Below, in pieces: positions 5,101 through 10,476 of a stretch of 64,000 nucleotides of DNA. The stretch's first letter is position 1, and every line of letters begins with the position of its first letter. This DNA comes from Bacteroidota bacterium (GTDB taxonomy: Bacteria; Bacteroidota; Bacteroidia; 2-12-FULL-35-15): NCBI GenBank assembly GCA_017303895.1, contig JAFLBF010000001.1, positions 496,001-560,000 on the forward strand, read 5' to 3'. The translations under genes were made by a program, and so were the position numbers. The notes below the pieces were generated by a model. It was not told where the DNA came from, searched no databases, and worked only from the letters and a program-made list of their open reading frames with translations.

Positions 5101-6456
5101 TTATTTTTGGATAATCACTTTCCTGCTACTAACTCCTGCAGAACCGTGTAGTTTTATAAAATATACCCCGCTGTAAAGTCGCTGTGTATCAAAGAAAGCA
5201 ATGGTTGTACCTTGATATAAATAATTGCTTTGAACCAGTTTTCCTGTAACATCAAATAGCTCAACAAGTAAATTTTCTTTGTTCATTCCATTTATTTGAA
5301 CCGCAATAAAATCATTGGCCGGGTTGGGATAAACATTCACCTCAAACGAATCATTTGTGGCCTCAGAAATGCTTGTTGCGGGAGCGTTGTAGGTGGTAGT
5401 GCTTTCGGAAATTGATGTAACCTTTGCGGCAGTTTTTACACCATAAAATGTTGGACCAACAGCATAGGGATATGCTGAATTCCAATTGGCATCAACCGTT
5501 GCAAAATAGCAATAGATACCTGCGGGATATTCCGGTGTTACACAAAAACGACCATTGTGTTCATCTAAATAATCAGATGCTGTTGGTGAAGTAAACTGAT
5601 AATCTTCTTTGAAATACCCCAAAGGATATGTGCTGCTAACCGCTGGTCCTGCTGTAACTGTTGCTCCTGTGTAGTAAGTTGTTCTTGTTGTAATGTTTCT
5701 TAGTGTCCAACTCGATTTCATTCTCACGATCCCGCCTGTTCCGTCTGCATTTTTGTATCCATAGGCACCGTAAATCGGAAATCCATCATAAGCAAACCCA
5801 ATAAGTGGCGAATGCTGTGTGCTGTCTATCACATAAAGCCCATCAGAATCATACAGATTACAGATGGTAGAGATCACATTCTGATCAAGTTTGTAAGCAC
5901 TTGGATTTTGGTGGTGATGGTAATTTCCCATTGCCGGATGACCCTTTGAACAGTCAAACCCCGGTTTCTCTGCAACTACCGCATCTCTATTCCAAACCCC
6001 ATCGCCTGTTCCGCCAAGCGGCCCACCAGCAAGCGCACCAGTTGAGTTTTTCCAGGAAACGCCATCGCGATAATCAAAAAGAGCAACACCATTCACAAAA
6101 ACACCAATATTGCCCATTGTTGTTGCTGTTGGCGTTCCTGTATTTTGAACAGGGTTTAATGGAAACTTAAAGATCGCGTTCTGGTTGCTTGCCAAAGACG
6201 GGTTTCCGTCTAAAAATGGTCCTGTTATATAAGCGGGAATACCCTTGGTTGAAACATAAACCCAGTTTGTTGAATATTGAACCGTTTGAACATTCGCAAG
6301 AACGTTGTCGTTGATAGGGGTTGAGTTTCCGCTCACATAATGGCGTCCCATAATATTGGTGGTGTTTTGCATCCACCCGGTAATTGCCGGGTTGGTTTGC
6401 GCCTGAGCCACAATGTTTGTTATCAGGGTAGCCAGAAATAGTCCTTTTAATTTCAT
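5101..6456 (-). CDS. YHYH-domain protein with T9SS type A sorting domain
   Basis: A 451-residue secreted protein. It has a signal peptide (LKGLFLATLITNIVAQAQ), a YHYH domain with GNYHHHQNP near residue 180 and GFAYDGFPIYGAYGY near 220, and a C-terminal type A sorting domain (VYPNPANDF to the last residues RKVIIQK) that targets proteins through the type IX system to the surface. The YHYH domain is His-rich and of unknown function. The ATG at 6456 starts directly at the signal peptide; an upstream in-frame start at 6501 would add 15 unlikely residues. It is the last gene of the sigma-factor operon, 41 bases after the di-heme enzyme, so a shared role in metal or redox handling is inferred. Confidence 0.85.
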   Translation of the reverse strand: MKLKGLFLATLITNIVAQAQTNPAITGWMQNTTNIMGRHYVSGNSTPINDNVLANVQTVQYSTNWVYVSTKGIPAYITGPFLDGNPSLASNQNAIFKFPLNPVQNTGTPTATTMGNIGVFVNGVALFDYRDGVSWKNSTGALAGGPLGGTGDGVWNRDAVVAEKPGFDCSKGHPAMGNYHHHQNPSAYKLDQNVISTICNLYDSDGLYVIDSTQHSPLIGFAYDGFPIYGAYGYKNADGTGGIVRMKSSWTLRNITTRTTYYTGATVTAGPAVSSTYPLGYFKEDYQFTSPTASDYLDEHNGRFCVTPEYPAGIYCYFATVDANWNSAYPYAVGPTFYGVKTAAKVTSISESTTTYNAPATSISEATNDSFEVNVYPNPANDFIAVQINGMNKENLLVELFDVTGKLVQSNYLYQGTTIAFFDTQRLYSGVYFIKLHGSAGVSSRKVIIQK

Positions 6457-6497
6457 ATTTATAATGTTGATTTTTAAGTATAGACGATTCTCTTTTA

Positions 6498-7532
6498 TCA
6501 ATCCTTCGCAGGATAAGAAAAAAAAATTTTTGGGTATGAAAAGCGTTTGTCAAAAAGAAAGGTTTTGTCTGTTAATGTTAATAGAAAAGCAATGATATCA
6601 ACCCGCTCCTCTGATGTGATCTTTATTGGGTTCAGCAGTTCTTTTGAAAGTGTTGGGCCTTGTGTTATCCCATTGCTATAGTGCTTCAACACCTCTGATA
6701 ATTTTTTTAATCGCCCATCATGCATATAGGGATAAGAGAATTCAATGTTTCGAAGTGTTGGCACCTTAAACAAAAGAGAGTCTTTGGCGTTTTGTGTGAT
6801 CGCATACCGCCCTTTATCCATGAGCGTTGTGTCAAGAGGTAAGCCGTTGTTTTCAAAACGATCATTTGTAAAGAGGGGTTCTGTATGACAAGAGGAGCAA
6901 TGTTTTTTGAATAAGCTGTAGCCCCTGTTTTCCTGATCGCTAAAACTGGCTTCTTTTCTCATAACGCTATCGTATTTCGAGTTGGAGGAAACAAGCGTTA
7001 ACATGAATTGCGAGATCGCTTTTAGTGTTCTTTCTCCTGTAATGACAGAGTCGCCAAAAGCTTTATAGAAAAGATTTTGATACAAACGGGTCGAACTTAA
7101 TTTTTTTACTACCGAGGAAATATTTTCATCCATTTCGAGCGGATTGCTAATAGGAGCAAGGGCCTGCGCCTCAATGTGGTTGACGGCTCCGTCCCACATA
7201 AACAAGCTCTGCCAGGCCAGGTTCATAAGAGCGGGAGAGTTTCTTTTCCCGATCCGGTCGTCTATCCCATGGCTTAGCGCATGGTCAACATGTGTGAATG
7301 CTGTATATTGAGAGTGACAACTTGCGCAGGAAACACTGTTGTTTCTGGACAGGATCTGATCATAAAACAAAGCCCTTCCAAGCTCAACCGTTTCTTTTGA
7401 CAATGGTTTTTTTGAAAAGTCGTACCGTGGTTTTGGCCAGCCCTTGGGAACTTCAAAAAGAGAATCGCCAGCGATCTGAAACCCCGCTAAAACGATCGAT
7501 AAAAAAAGAAAAACAAGGAGCTTCGTTTTCAT
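6498..7532 (-). CDS. MbnH/MauG-like di-heme cytochrome c peroxidase family protein
   Basis: A 344-residue periplasmic protein with a signal peptide and two c-type heme motifs, CASCH at 69-73 and CSSCH at 212-216. The segment NPLEM near 130 and FSYPYMHDGR at 265-274 are standard for bacterial di-heme peroxidases and their MauG/MbnH relatives. The start overlaps the stop of the MbnP-like gene by four bases (ATGA). In the known MbnP/MbnH pair the di-heme enzyme oxidises a tryptophan of MbnP to kynurenine. The placement here makes an MbnH-like role more likely than simple peroxide removal, but sequence alone does not decide it. Confidence 0.9.
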   Translation of the reverse strand: MKTKLLVFLFLSIVLAGFQIAGDSLFEVPKGWPKPRYDFSKKPLSKETVELGRALFYDQILSRNNSVSCASCHSQYTAFTHVDHALSHGIDDRIGKRNSPALMNLAWQSLFMWDGAVNHIEAQALAPISNPLEMDENISSVVKKLSSTRLYQNLFYKAFGDSVITGERTLKAISQFMLTLVSSNSKYDSVMRKEASFSDQENRGYSLFKKHCSSCHTEPLFTNDRFENNGLPLDTTLMDKGRYAITQNAKDSLLFKVPTLRNIEFSYPYMHDGRLKKLSEVLKHYSNGITQGPTLSKELLNPIKITSEERVDIIAFLLTLTDKTFLFDKRFSYPKIFFSYPAKD

Positions 7533-8227
7533 GGTTCTTTTACAATAAAGCTCTTATCTAAAAGTTTGGAAAACGAAGTCGCGTTTTGAGATGGCGACAT
7601 AATGTTCGCTTCTTTGTCAAGTTGAACGTGATCGAAGATCGTCTTAAGTTCCAGCACAATAAATGCTTTTGAAGATCCACCTACTTTTAACGAGACCTCC
7701 CGTATGCAGCTGTAGGGATGGGCGTAGCCGCCAATGTGATAGATGAATTCTTTTTTAGGGTTTGTACATTGTTTAGAGTTTCCCTCCAGCTTGAAATTAA
7801 TGTACCCGCTTTGCCAGGTCCAATACATGCCCTTTGTCGGATCCAGGTCGCCACCAAGAACCCCGGAAACATTGGTTGTGCTGTCTATTCCCAGATCAAA
7901 ACGGATTTCATCATAAACAACATTCTTATGGATGGGAATAATAATGGAGGTTGAGTTGGTGTCTGAGGCATCGATCAGGTGTGCTAAAGCAGTATCCTGA
8001 GCCACTATTGTTCCACTGGAAAACAATCGAATGTGAGAGACATAATATTTTAAAACATTTATCTTGAGATCTTTTGCTGTGTTTATTGCCACTCCGGAGT
8101 CTGATACAATAAACCTCTTACCATCATACTGATGCTGAAAGGAAATAGAAACAAAGCCCCCTTTTTGAGCACAAGCAAAGAAGGTAAAAAGAAAGAGTTG
8201 AACAAGTGTAATATAGAACCTTAACAA
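7529..8227 (-). CDS. MbnP-like (methanobactin partner family) exported protein
   Basis: A 232-residue protein. After a hydrophobic leader ending FFACAQ (a possible lipobox, Cys19) comes an MbnP-type beta-sandwich: KYYVSHIRLFS near 60-70, DEIRFDLGIDSTTNVSG at 106-122, then GGDLDPTKGMYWTWQSGYINF at 125-145. MbnP of methanotrophs binds copper and is modified on tryptophan by MbnH. Here the only two tryptophans are W136 and W138, both in the conserved segment. Translation must start at TTG (8227), as the upstream frame is closed two codons earlier or overlaps the preceding gene. It lies two bases after the metal-sensor-like gene and overlaps the di-heme gene. Confidence 0.86.
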   Translation of the reverse strand: MLRFYITLVQLFLFTFFACAQKGGFVSISFQHQYDGKRFIVSDSGVAINTAKDLKINVLKYYVSHIRLFSSGTIVAQDTALAHLIDASDTNSTSIIIPIHKNVVYDEIRFDLGIDSTTNVSGVLGGDLDPTKGMYWTWQSGYINFKLEGNSKQCTNPKKEFIYHIGGYAHPYSCIREVSLKVGGSSKAFIVLELKTIFDHVQLDKEANIMSPSQNATSFSKLLDKSFIVKEP

Positions 8228-8229
8228 GA

Positions 8230-8694
8230 CTACGGTTTGTGTTTAGGTGGATGAGGCGGTGCAAAGAGCCTTGCTATTTCATGGCTAAGTTCCTCGAAAA
8301 GCGGCTTTTGTTCCGGTTTACACAAGTTTTTAATGTCTAAAAAGTGATTGTAGTGGGTCGTTTCAATTTCTTTTTGAAGGTTACCAAGCTCAATGATCAA
8401 CGAGTCTTTAATGGTATTGTCCGTATTCGTAAGCGTTGTGTAAAGCGTGTTTTTTATTTCGATCATTTTTGCTTGCGATCGATCAATATCTTGTCGGTGC
8501 TGTTGAATCAGCGATTCAAACGCTACTTGCTGTGCTTTATCAAACTTTAGTTTTTCAATTATGATATTTCTGGGCCCACCGCCTCCTGCCGGCCCATGAT
8601 GTTGTGGGCGACCCGACACCAGGAACCACAACAAAACAATGTTTGTTATGAAAAGGCCGATGGTGGTAATTGTTAATAGGTTTTTAGTGTTCAT
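8230..8694 (-). CDS. periplasmic heavy-metal sensor-like protein (CnrX/CpxP type)
   Basis: A 154-residue protein with one N-terminal membrane span (about 8-27) and a periplasmic helical domain of the heavy-metal resistance type seen in CnrX and ZraP/CpxP relatives. Possible metal ligands are H32 and H33 at the start of a glycine-rich linker, H66, the HYNH pair at 114/117, C125, and a His-rich tail (PHPPKHKP). The start codon overlaps the previous stop (ATGA). By analogy with CnrYXH of Cupriavidus it would sense metal and release the sigma factor. That role is inferred from family and order. Confidence 0.8.
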   Translation of the reverse strand: MNTKNLLTITTIGLFITNIVLLWFLVSGRPQHHGPAGGGGPRNIIIEKLKFDKAQQVAFESLIQQHRQDIDRSQAKMIEIKNTLYTTLTNTDNTIKDSLIIELGNLQKEIETTHYNHFLDIKNLCKPEQKPLFEELSHEIARLFAPPHPPKHKP

Positions 8695-8945
8695 TTGTAT
8701 AATTCATTGTCGGGCATTAACCCCATTGATTCAACAACCGTATTTGTTTTCTGACTCTTTTTTGCCACCCAAACAATCGCTCCGGCATTAACAAAAAGAA
8801 TCGTAAGCATAGAAAGACTGACAGCCCAGACAAGTCTTTTAGGAACAAGGTCTTTTGCGTTTTCCTTAATGCGTTGTTGTATTCTCGTGTATAAAAAAGG
8901 AGAAACATCAACGGTTTTTATTTTATGTAGATCATCAATATTCAT
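8691..8945 (-). CDS. small single-span membrane protein, candidate anti-sigma factor
   Basis: An 84-residue protein with a cytoplasmic N-terminal half (VSPFLYTRIQQRIKE near 14-28), one membrane span (about 38-61) and a short periplasmic tail. It starts seven bases after the ECF sigma gene and overlaps the sensor-like gene by four bases. Size, topology and position match small membrane anti-sigma proteins such as CnrY, but I see no decisive sequence motif, so this is a positional inference. Confidence 0.7.
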   Translation of the reverse strand: MNIDDLHKIKTVDVSPFLYTRIQQRIKENAKDLVPKRLVWAVSLSMLTILFVNAGAIVWVAKKSQKTNTVVESMGLMPDNELYK

Positions 8946-8952
8946 GTCTCAA

Positions 8953-9501
8953 TTATTGGTTTAGACGACTTTTAGGATCATTCCCCTCGCTGCTTTCCAT
9001 TTTTTTTGACAATCCGGCCTTTGCCCTCTGAATAAGCGACTCAACAGCCTTGGTGCTCAGGTTCATTATTTCTCCCACTTCAGCTTGTGTTTTCTGTTCT
9101 ATTTTGTGCAAAATTAGTGCTGTTTTCTGATTGTCGGGCAACTCGTTTATTTTTTGAAAAATAGCCTTGATCGACTCTTTGTCTTCCATTAAAATTCCCG
9201 GGTGGTCAAATGAGGGCGGTTCGTGTTTTAATGTGCTATTATCTTCAAAGAAAAGGCTGGTGAAGAAGGCAAACCTTTTTTTTCTTTGTTTGGAGCGGAT
9301 GTGATCAAGTGATTTGTTGATCGTTATCCGGTATATCCAGGTTTTGATGGAAGATTCTTCTTTGAACCCGGAGTAAGATTGATGAATTGACACAAAAACA
9401 TCTTGTGTTATCTCTTCTGCGTCTTCAATGTTTTGAACGTATTGAAGCGCAAGGTTAAAAACCATTTTGCTATGAGCTGTATATATCTCTTCGAAATTCA
9501 A
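8953..9501 (-). CDS. ECF-type RNA polymerase sigma factor
   Basis: A 182-residue sigma-70 family protein. Region 2 (residues 1-73) contains YVQNIEDAEEITQDVFV and SIKTWIYRITINKSLDHIRSK. Region 4 (about 112-168) contains LPDNQKTALILHKIEQ and the helix-turn-helix AEVGEIMNLSTKAVESLIQRAK. The only possible start is TTG at 9501: the frame has a stop (TGA) five codons earlier and no ATG before region 2. It heads a tight six-gene operon down to the terminator at 5092, and such sigma factors usually direct their own operon. Confidence 0.93.
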   Translation of the reverse strand: MNFEEIYTAHSKMVFNLALQYVQNIEDAEEITQDVFVSIHQSYSGFKEESSIKTWIYRITINKSLDHIRSKQRKKRFAFFTSLFFEDNSTLKHEPPSFDHPGILMEDKESIKAIFQKINELPDNQKTALILHKIEQKTQAEVGEIMNLSTKAVESLIQRAKAGLSKKMESSEGNDPKSRLNQ

Positions 9502-9569: not shown

Positions 9570-10025
9570 TTAATTGGTTTGGGGACGAAAGATGGAAAAT
9601 CGGCCCTTTTTAAGATGATTCAAATCGACATCCGAAAGGATCACAAACCGTTTTCTGTTCGAGTTTTGTTCTGCTATTGTATAATGATTTTTGCCGATCA
9701 CCTTGTAAACAATAGCTGTGTGTTGTGGAAATTCTTTCCAGCTGCCATCGGGATAAACCAGTTTAACTTTTTCAAATTGAATAATATCTCCCGGAAGCAC
9801 TGCGTCTTTGTCGTTATTCAGTTCTTTTCCAAATTCATAGGGAGGGGTCCATTTTGCTCCCGAGCTGTTTAGCGCCTCGGCTGCAAGATCCCAGCATTCG
9901 CCTTTCCCAACTTTCTTTCCCATGTGCTTATCACAAAAGGAAATAATTTTTTTATTGATCTCGGGCGTTTCTTGAGCATGAGGCCAAACGAAAAGGGCTA
10001 TTAGAAAGATCAAGGTAGATTTCAT
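9570..10025 (-). CDS. secreted papain-fold (CHAP/NlpC-like) hydrolase
   Basis: A 151-residue protein with a signal peptide (to about residue 17). The segment VGKGECWDLAAEAL (C44), a PGDIIQF strand near 78-84 and QHTAIV (H102) gives the Cys-His order of the papain-like amidase fold. The pattern resembles the small cysteine-protease-like domains also found in eukaryotic BBC1 proteins. The substrate is unknown; peptidoglycan is possible for a periplasmic member. It is read away from the sigma operon promoter, 68 bases upstream of the sigma start on the same strand. Confidence 0.68.
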   Translation of the reverse strand: MKSTLIFLIALFVWPHAQETPEINKKIISFCDKHMGKKVGKGECWDLAAEALNSSGAKWTPPYEFGKELNNDKDAVLPGDIIQFEKVKLVYPDGSWKEFPQHTAIVYKVIGKNHYTIAEQNSNRKRFVILSDVDLNHLKKGRFSIFRPQTN

Positions 10026-10071: not shown

Positions 10072-10476
10072 TTATTTTATCAAAACACCTTTCTTGTTAA
10101 TATAAGGAACAAGGATAAAGTTTTCTTCTTTGATCGTTTCCGGCAGAAAGATGTATTTTTTATCGTACATCACGCTGTTCTGAAAAAAGCTAACCCAATA
10201 CTCATTATTTAATCCGAAAACGGATTCATCGATCGGTTCTATTTTCGAAAAGCTTTTTGCCTTCACAACATCCAGAAAGTGGCGCAATGTTGATGTTTTA
10301 ACCTCCTCGCCATTGTGTTGCCCATATCCGTGGGAGGTTGCTAACACGCCTTCAATGTCCTGTTTTTTTAAATTGATCAGATACACATTCCAAACGGGTT
10401 CCGCCAATTCATTTTCTTCTTTAACAACCGCCACAGCAACATCTTCGACTGTGGGAGGGGTAATATCCTTTTTCAT
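10072..10476 (-). CDS. conserved Bacteroidota protein of unknown function
   Basis: A 134-residue soluble acidic protein without signal peptide. It has a conserved-looking core: WNVYLINLKKQDIEGVLATS, then STLRHFLDVVKAKSFSKIEPI and EYWVSFFQNSVMYDKKYIFL. It resembles a small protein widespread in Bacteroidota and sometimes carried under misleading tRNA-synthetase names; it has no synthetase motif. Function is unknown. It ends 46 bases before the papain-like gene. Confidence 0.7.
   Translation of the reverse strand: MKKDITPPTVEDVAVAVVKEENELAEPVWNVYLINLKKQDIEGVLATSHGYGQHNGEEVKTSTLRHFLDVVKAKSFSKIEPIDESVFGLNNEYWVSFFQNSVMYDKKYIFLPETIKEENFILVPYINKKGVLIK

Follow-up and report, generated by a model that had tools for sequence, protein, structure and literature searches.

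We describe a six-gene operon in a 64,000-nt stretch of a Bacteroidota genome (contig JAFLBF010000001.1, positions 496,001 to 560,000; hereafter the window). Its genes encode, in order, an extracytoplasmic function (ECF) sigma factor, a small one-span protein, a CnrX-like sensor, an MbnP-family protein, an MbnH-type di-haem enzyme and a YHYH protein. We lean towards reading these genes as a self-contained operon for metal homeostasis in the cell envelope, most likely for copper, in which a switch of sensor, anti-sigma and sigma factor would govern a kynurenine-type MbnP and a YHYH protein at the cell surface. What sets the arrangement apart is that a pair of the kynurenine–copper type would answer to a sigma switch of predicted CnrX fold and have YHYH for a third partner.

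Gene order and its conservation

The six open reading frames (ORFs) are tightly packed on the minus strand between 9501 and 5101 (Table 1). An earlier note on this DNA had proposed this operon, with the same order and families, and ORF and Pfam checks confirm all six ORFs. Its spacings stand for the gap of 7 bases between the sigma factor and the one-span protein, the 4-base overlap of the latter with the CnrX-like gene, the gap of 2 bases before MbnP, and the 4-base overlap of MbnP with MbnH. A further 4-base overlap, between MbnH and YHYH, does not: it requires a TTG start at 6501, whose 15-residue extension is absent from homologues. The start of the YHYH gene is more likely the ATG at 6456, since homologues begin there and a signal peptide (MKLKGLFLATLITNIVAQAQ) comes next, which would leave a gap of about 41 bases.

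Table 1. Genes of the operon, with the family matches (E-values) of their products.
Feature	Position	Strand	Remarks
ECF sigma factor	8953..9501	-	182 aa, TTG start; Pfam Sigma70_r2 2.8e-16, r4_2 5.7e-13
One-span protein, putative anti-sigma	8691..8945	-	84 aa; no family match
Membrane-anchored periplasmic sensor, predicted CnrX/Spy fold	8230..8694	-	154 aa; Metal_resist 0.0013, below cut-off
MbnP-family protein	7529..8227	-	232 aa, signal peptide; MbnP PF20243 2.9e-39
MauG/MbnH-type di-haem enzyme	6498..7532	-	344 aa; CCP_MauG 2e-54
YHYH protein	5101..6456	-	451 aa from ATG 6456; PF14240 1.9e-57, Por_Secre_tail 1.3e-14

The gene order is not due to chance, for it is repeated in distant genomes. 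Among 36 genomes of the genus, the full set is found in that of the window and in G028 and G030; G004 carries five of the genes, up to the end of a contig, and G027 and G031 carry mbnP-mbnH-yhyh without the regulator. Beyond the genus, we scanned GTDB genomes with an MbnP profile and kept the closest 80 loci, a set chosen by similarity that contains near-duplicates (L100 shares its sequence upstream of sigma with L033, and L097 its MbnP with L202). The 59 loci with enough flank include mbnH in 58 cases, yhyh in 50, and sigma plus a CnrX-like gene in 29. Loci of the operon type are carried by Chitinophagaceae, Saprospiraceae, Chryseobacterium, Neolewinella, and metagenome-assembled genomes (MAGs) of Ignavibacteria/Kapabacteria. 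The regulator has been gained or lost many times across the MbnP tree, and its presence there is clustered (21 changes versus a shuffled mean of 30.8; 0 of 500 shuffles).

We also surveyed 296 genomes from across the phylum, sampled without selection and each at least 90% complete; 78 contain MbnP, 34 YHYH and 143 a CnrX-like protein. A CnrX-like gene lies 66–84 bases from MbnP in five of them, from five families (G000, G047, G080, G227 and G247). Under expectations that assume random placement and ignore relatedness, the distance from YHYH to MbnP is at most 5 kb in 8 of the 34 YHYH genomes (0.2 expected), that to a CnrX-like gene in 7 genomes (0.09 expected), and that to SCO1 in 5 (0.35 expected; three cases, G189, G123 and G289, come from match coordinates and two from locus annotation). 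The association of six families that the earlier note had put forward for one genome is thus met with elsewhere, both in the similarity-chosen loci, 24 of 59 of which hold everything, and in the five families of the unselected sample.

A putative sigma switch with a sensor of predicted CnrX fold

The ECF sigma factor scores above the cut-off of the NCBIfam sigma70-ECF superfamily and under that of TIGR02985, and its TTG start is common to homologues. The one-span protein occupies the same position in loci with the sigma/CnrX triad, with a mean column identity of 33%. It has a conserved PPFL.TRI block in its N-terminus, a transmembrane segment from about residue 42, and a conserved C-terminal N-x-L-Y; its N-terminus would be cytoplasmic and its C-terminus periplasmic, and we regard it as a putative anti-sigma factor. 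No family match was found for it in Pfam or NCBIfam. Nor was a match to CnrY detected by sequence; position and single span fit.

The sensor is anchored by a transmembrane segment near residues 8–26. Its AlphaFold2 (AF2) model is confident (pLDDT 91.9), and CnrX and NccX occupy most of the top ranks when that model is searched with Foldseek (probability 1.00, E 0.014–0.07, TMt 0.60–0.78); the predicted fold is the CnrX fold. The nearest sequence profile is Spy (1.8e-5). Residues Q55, H66, E111, H117 and C125 are conserved. The trio H66/H117/C125 is retained in some 90% of sensors, alike in MbnP-linked and other modules, and we therefore rejected this set as a mark of MbnP-linked sensors; only H114 differs (57% versus 3% in other modules, uncorrected for relatedness). 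A few MbnP-linked sensors are without H66 and H117. The earlier note had called the protein CnrX-like and His-rich: the former agrees with the predicted fold, and the tails that are rich in His are a local feature and lack conservation.

The metal ligands of CnrX we take to be His42, His46, Glu63, His119 and Met123. In a weak profile alignment with CnrX 4wwb (E ~1), one of these five is matched, His119 corresponding to H117 of the sensor. As in the CnrYXH and NccYXH systems of Cupriavidus metallidurans, an ECF sigma factor, a small one-span protein and a membrane-anchored sensor of predicted CnrX fold share one operon. Unlike in those systems, the order here is sigma, small protein, sensor; the equivalent of H119 is the only ligand kept; and the cargo is MbnP-MbnH-YHYH rather than an RND (resistance–nodulation–division) efflux pump. 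The predicted sensor fold agrees with the label CnrYXH-like of the earlier note, the other four ligands do not, and the small protein, compatible with it in position and single span, shows no sequence match to CnrY.

The triad also occurs without MbnP, before other genes. It precedes YHYH in L244 and L247, and in two genomes it heads operons that continue with one or two YHYH genes, MORN and the copper chaperone SCO1 (L245:2772-7076 and L246:2656-6130). At L254:5002-8485 it is followed by a CCP_MauG di-haem peroxidase-family gene and a second Spy-like gene, and no MbnP was found beside them. Elsewhere it precedes Lcl_C proteins of the type IX secretion system (T9SS; L239 and L241) or an MscS mechanosensitive channel (L249:3908-4855). 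Since its cargo elsewhere includes YHYH, SCO1, peroxidase-family, Lcl_C and MscS genes, the module is a general one that is markedly associated with YHYH and genes of the copper type. In L248 and L255, a gene resembling the L249 channel in size and N-terminus comes after the module.

MbnP, its di-haem enzyme and the YHYH protein

The identities that the earlier note gave to the three remaining proteins are all upheld. MbnP scores 135.4 bits against PF20243 (gathering cut-off 27), and its WTW motif (W136/W138) and H164 are kept in 100% of 82 sequences, H83 in 92%. A profile search for a solved MbnP structure gave no match. MbnH has two haem motifs, C69-x-x-C72-H73 and C212-x-x-C215-H216, both kept in 98–100% of 82 MbnH-type sequences. 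Tyr285, present in 95% of them, lies at the axial-ligand position, where it aligns with the Tyr of the di-haem enzyme 6e1c and with the Met of the peroxidase 3o5c; judged by this alignment, it is the MauG/MbnH-type Tyr that replaces the axial Met of peroxidases.

The same genome holds a second, canonical MbnP/MbnH pair (L051:4257-11229; G000:C1:89256-96228), which has a TonB receptor and an HMA-domain protein as neighbours and no sigma/CnrX module beside it. In the tree of MbnP, sequences of the window type group together with support, apart from this canonical pair. Because the second pair adjoins a TonB receptor and HMA protein without such a regulator, we suggest that the cell has one MbnP/MbnH locus for uptake and another switched by a sigma factor.

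Pairs of MbnP and MbnH have been described previously, as have the FecIR-type sigma systems that occasionally accompany them (PMC3621798, PMC9601215). In methanobactin producers and elsewhere, the pairs (TIGR04052/TIGR04039, GenProp0940; PMC3621798) likewise consist of adjacent genes for MbnP and a MauG-like di-haem enzyme, and the operon resembles them in its Pfam MbnP match and in the axial Tyr shared with 6e1c. It departs from them in scoring below both NCBIfam equivalog cut-offs, in its separate MbnP clade, its T9SS-exported YHYH partner and its CnrX-type, rather than FecIR/MbnIR-type, sigma control. In Methylosinus, MbnI/MbnR-MbnT also places an ECF sigma factor and a membrane anti-sigma near MbnP/MbnH (PMC3621798, PMC9601215), but there a TonB receptor drives a system of the FecIR type, and a CnrX-like sensor is absent. 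CorA/CorB and MopE/SACCP (PMC3912023) likewise involve an exported copper protein with a Trp that is the partner for a di-haem enzyme; there the motif is Trp-x-His (Kyn62, H64) in place of WxW, and sigma control is not described for them (PMC3912023). For YHYH together with MbnP/MbnH, copper or cytochromes, or for CnrX-type control of MbnP/MbnH, we found no literature, subscription papers being outside the search.

The YHYH protein, which is rich in histidine, exceeds the cut-offs of both PF14240 (194.8 bits) and Por_Secre_tail (54.6 bits). Weak YHYH matches in the first locus scan were judged to be T9SS sorting domains, and a profile of the YHYH domain only was used for later scans. Invariant among relatives are H173, H180, H182 and H215, plus Asp/Cys, and these His accord with the site of His and Asp that has been proposed to bind metal in the YHYH domains of phage tails (PMC7824862). 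The Pfam domain and the conserved His/Asp set are thus shared with the phage proteins; the operon's protein is cellular, T9SS-secreted and set among copper-type genes. Its AF2 model is poor (pLDDT 64), and Foldseek gave no credible match to it. In Neolewinella persica, two more YHYH-domain proteins and a DUF6702 protein are encoded between mbnP and mbnH (L111:10838-13544). Sulfatases recur near YHYH genes (L055:5167-6750, L060:13455-15038, L189:13235-14827, L203:5521-7125 and L204:4598-6196), and three of the five bear a T9SS sorting domain.

Probable copper handling and competing explanations

Judging from sequence, a role of the operon in copper handling, which the earlier note had also inferred, is likely. 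In its favour we count the recurrence of the operon, the neighbours of YHYH and the operons with SCO1, the predicted fold of the sensor, Tyr285 and both haem motifs of MbnH, the invariant W136, W138 and H164 of MbnP, and the TonB receptor and HMA protein beside the second pair. The operon might work as follows. From its anchor in the inner membrane, the protein of CnrX fold would sense periplasmic metal or a metal-related state, and act via the one-span anti-sigma, probably by touching its conserved C-terminal tail. Together the two proteins would keep the sigma factor at the membrane until a metal signal frees it to transcribe the operon. MbnP would be exported to the periplasm, where MbnH may oxidise one Trp of the WxW motif, probably to kynurenine, and so complete a Kyn/His copper site; in the analogous proteins CorA and MopE, kynurenine belongs to the site that holds copper (PMC3912023). 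YHYH, exported by the T9SS to the cell surface, would be a partner that binds metal, capturing copper outside the cell or setting it free there.

Several observations weigh against this picture. Four of the CnrX ligands (His42, His46, Glu63 and Met123) are not conserved in the sensor, as far as the weak alignment tells. H66, H117 and C125 are also found in the modules that precede the mechanosensitive channel or Lcl_C proteins, so that the sigma-CnrX family as a whole is not specific to copper. Both members of the pair miss their NCBIfam equivalog cut-offs: MbnP scores 30 versus 140 bits for TIGR04052 (the canonical MbnP of the same genome is also under it, at 48.6 bits), and MbnH 224.6 versus 362.85 bits for TIGR04039. 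A search for a promoter motif 5' of sigma in 40 loci yielded none clearly exceeding shuffles. Finally, the sulfatases near YHYH could indicate a hydrolase context or a shared need for maturation.

An operon of the same build might serve another metal (Zn, Ni or Co) or several, with MbnP binding that metal and its Trp oxidised or not. CnrX itself answers Ni and Co, the titles of the Foldseek matches include CnrX structures with Ni, Co, Zn and Cu, and the His/Cys set of the sensor does not fix the metal. The TonB receptor by the second pair scores alike with the ZnuD model and with copper receptors, all below cut-off, and the YHYH domain has been predicted as a Zn site (PMC7824862). Yet the links to MbnP/MbnH and SCO1 suggest copper, and the WxW and His of MbnP are conserved, so that we hold a different metal to be unlikely. 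We find it quite unlikely that the operon answers general envelope or oxidative stress, with the Spy/CnrX fold sensing misfolding or redox state, the di-haem enzyme handling peroxide and copper incidental: MbnH has Tyr285 instead of the peroxidase Met, the MbnP partner is near-constant, and H66/H117 persist in most sensors, even though Spy is the nearest sensor profile, CnrX-like proteins with varied cargo occur in nearly half of the sample (143/296), and some MbnP-linked sensors lack both His.

The remaining alternative concerns YHYH, which might be a surface hydrolase with a substrate of its own, accompanying MbnP/MbnH because these deliver its metal. A metal-dependent hydrolase has been predicted for phage YHYH (PMC7824862), the five sulfatase neighbours would suit such an activity, and strong YHYH genes exist without MbnP nearby; against this, MbnP and SCO1 are enriched as neighbours, and the fold was not resolved by AF2 or Foldseek. 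We consider a hydrolase rather unlikely, and retain the copper-handling operon as the preferred reading. Whether it would serve scavenging or protection is a separate matter. In the CnrX systems known so far, the response is to an excess of metal. CorA and MopE, by contrast, which correspond to MbnP in function, are copper-repressed (PMC3912023), and the operon may therefore serve either role.

A bolder reading, which we hold to be less likely than not, is that MbnP/MbnH has a third, surface partner in YHYH; that the trio constitutes a copper regulon of Bacteroidota (plus Ignavibacteria/Kapabacteria MAGs), switched by a sensor that has the CnrX fold but a remodelled site of His and Cys; and that YHYH domains in general handle copper. 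MbnP/MbnH pairs are widespread, and a dedicated regulator of sensor and sigma factor would tell when the pair is needed, including outside methanotrophs. For YHYH, a domain that has been called enigmatic, the link suggests a first function that can be put to the test. The module would moreover add a sigma switch of the metal type to a phylum poor in class I anti-sigma domains, which accompany 6% of its ECFs (PMC7406223).

Two further minus-strand genes lie upstream of sigma, at 9570-10025 and 10072-10476, with spacings of 68 and 46 bases. Since the genes 5' of sigma vary among other loci, we treat sigma as the head of the conserved set. The nearer of the two encodes a small secreted protein with a match (5.3e-21) to the AIM3/BBC1 cysteine-proteinase-fold domain; that family takes its name from fungal proteins.
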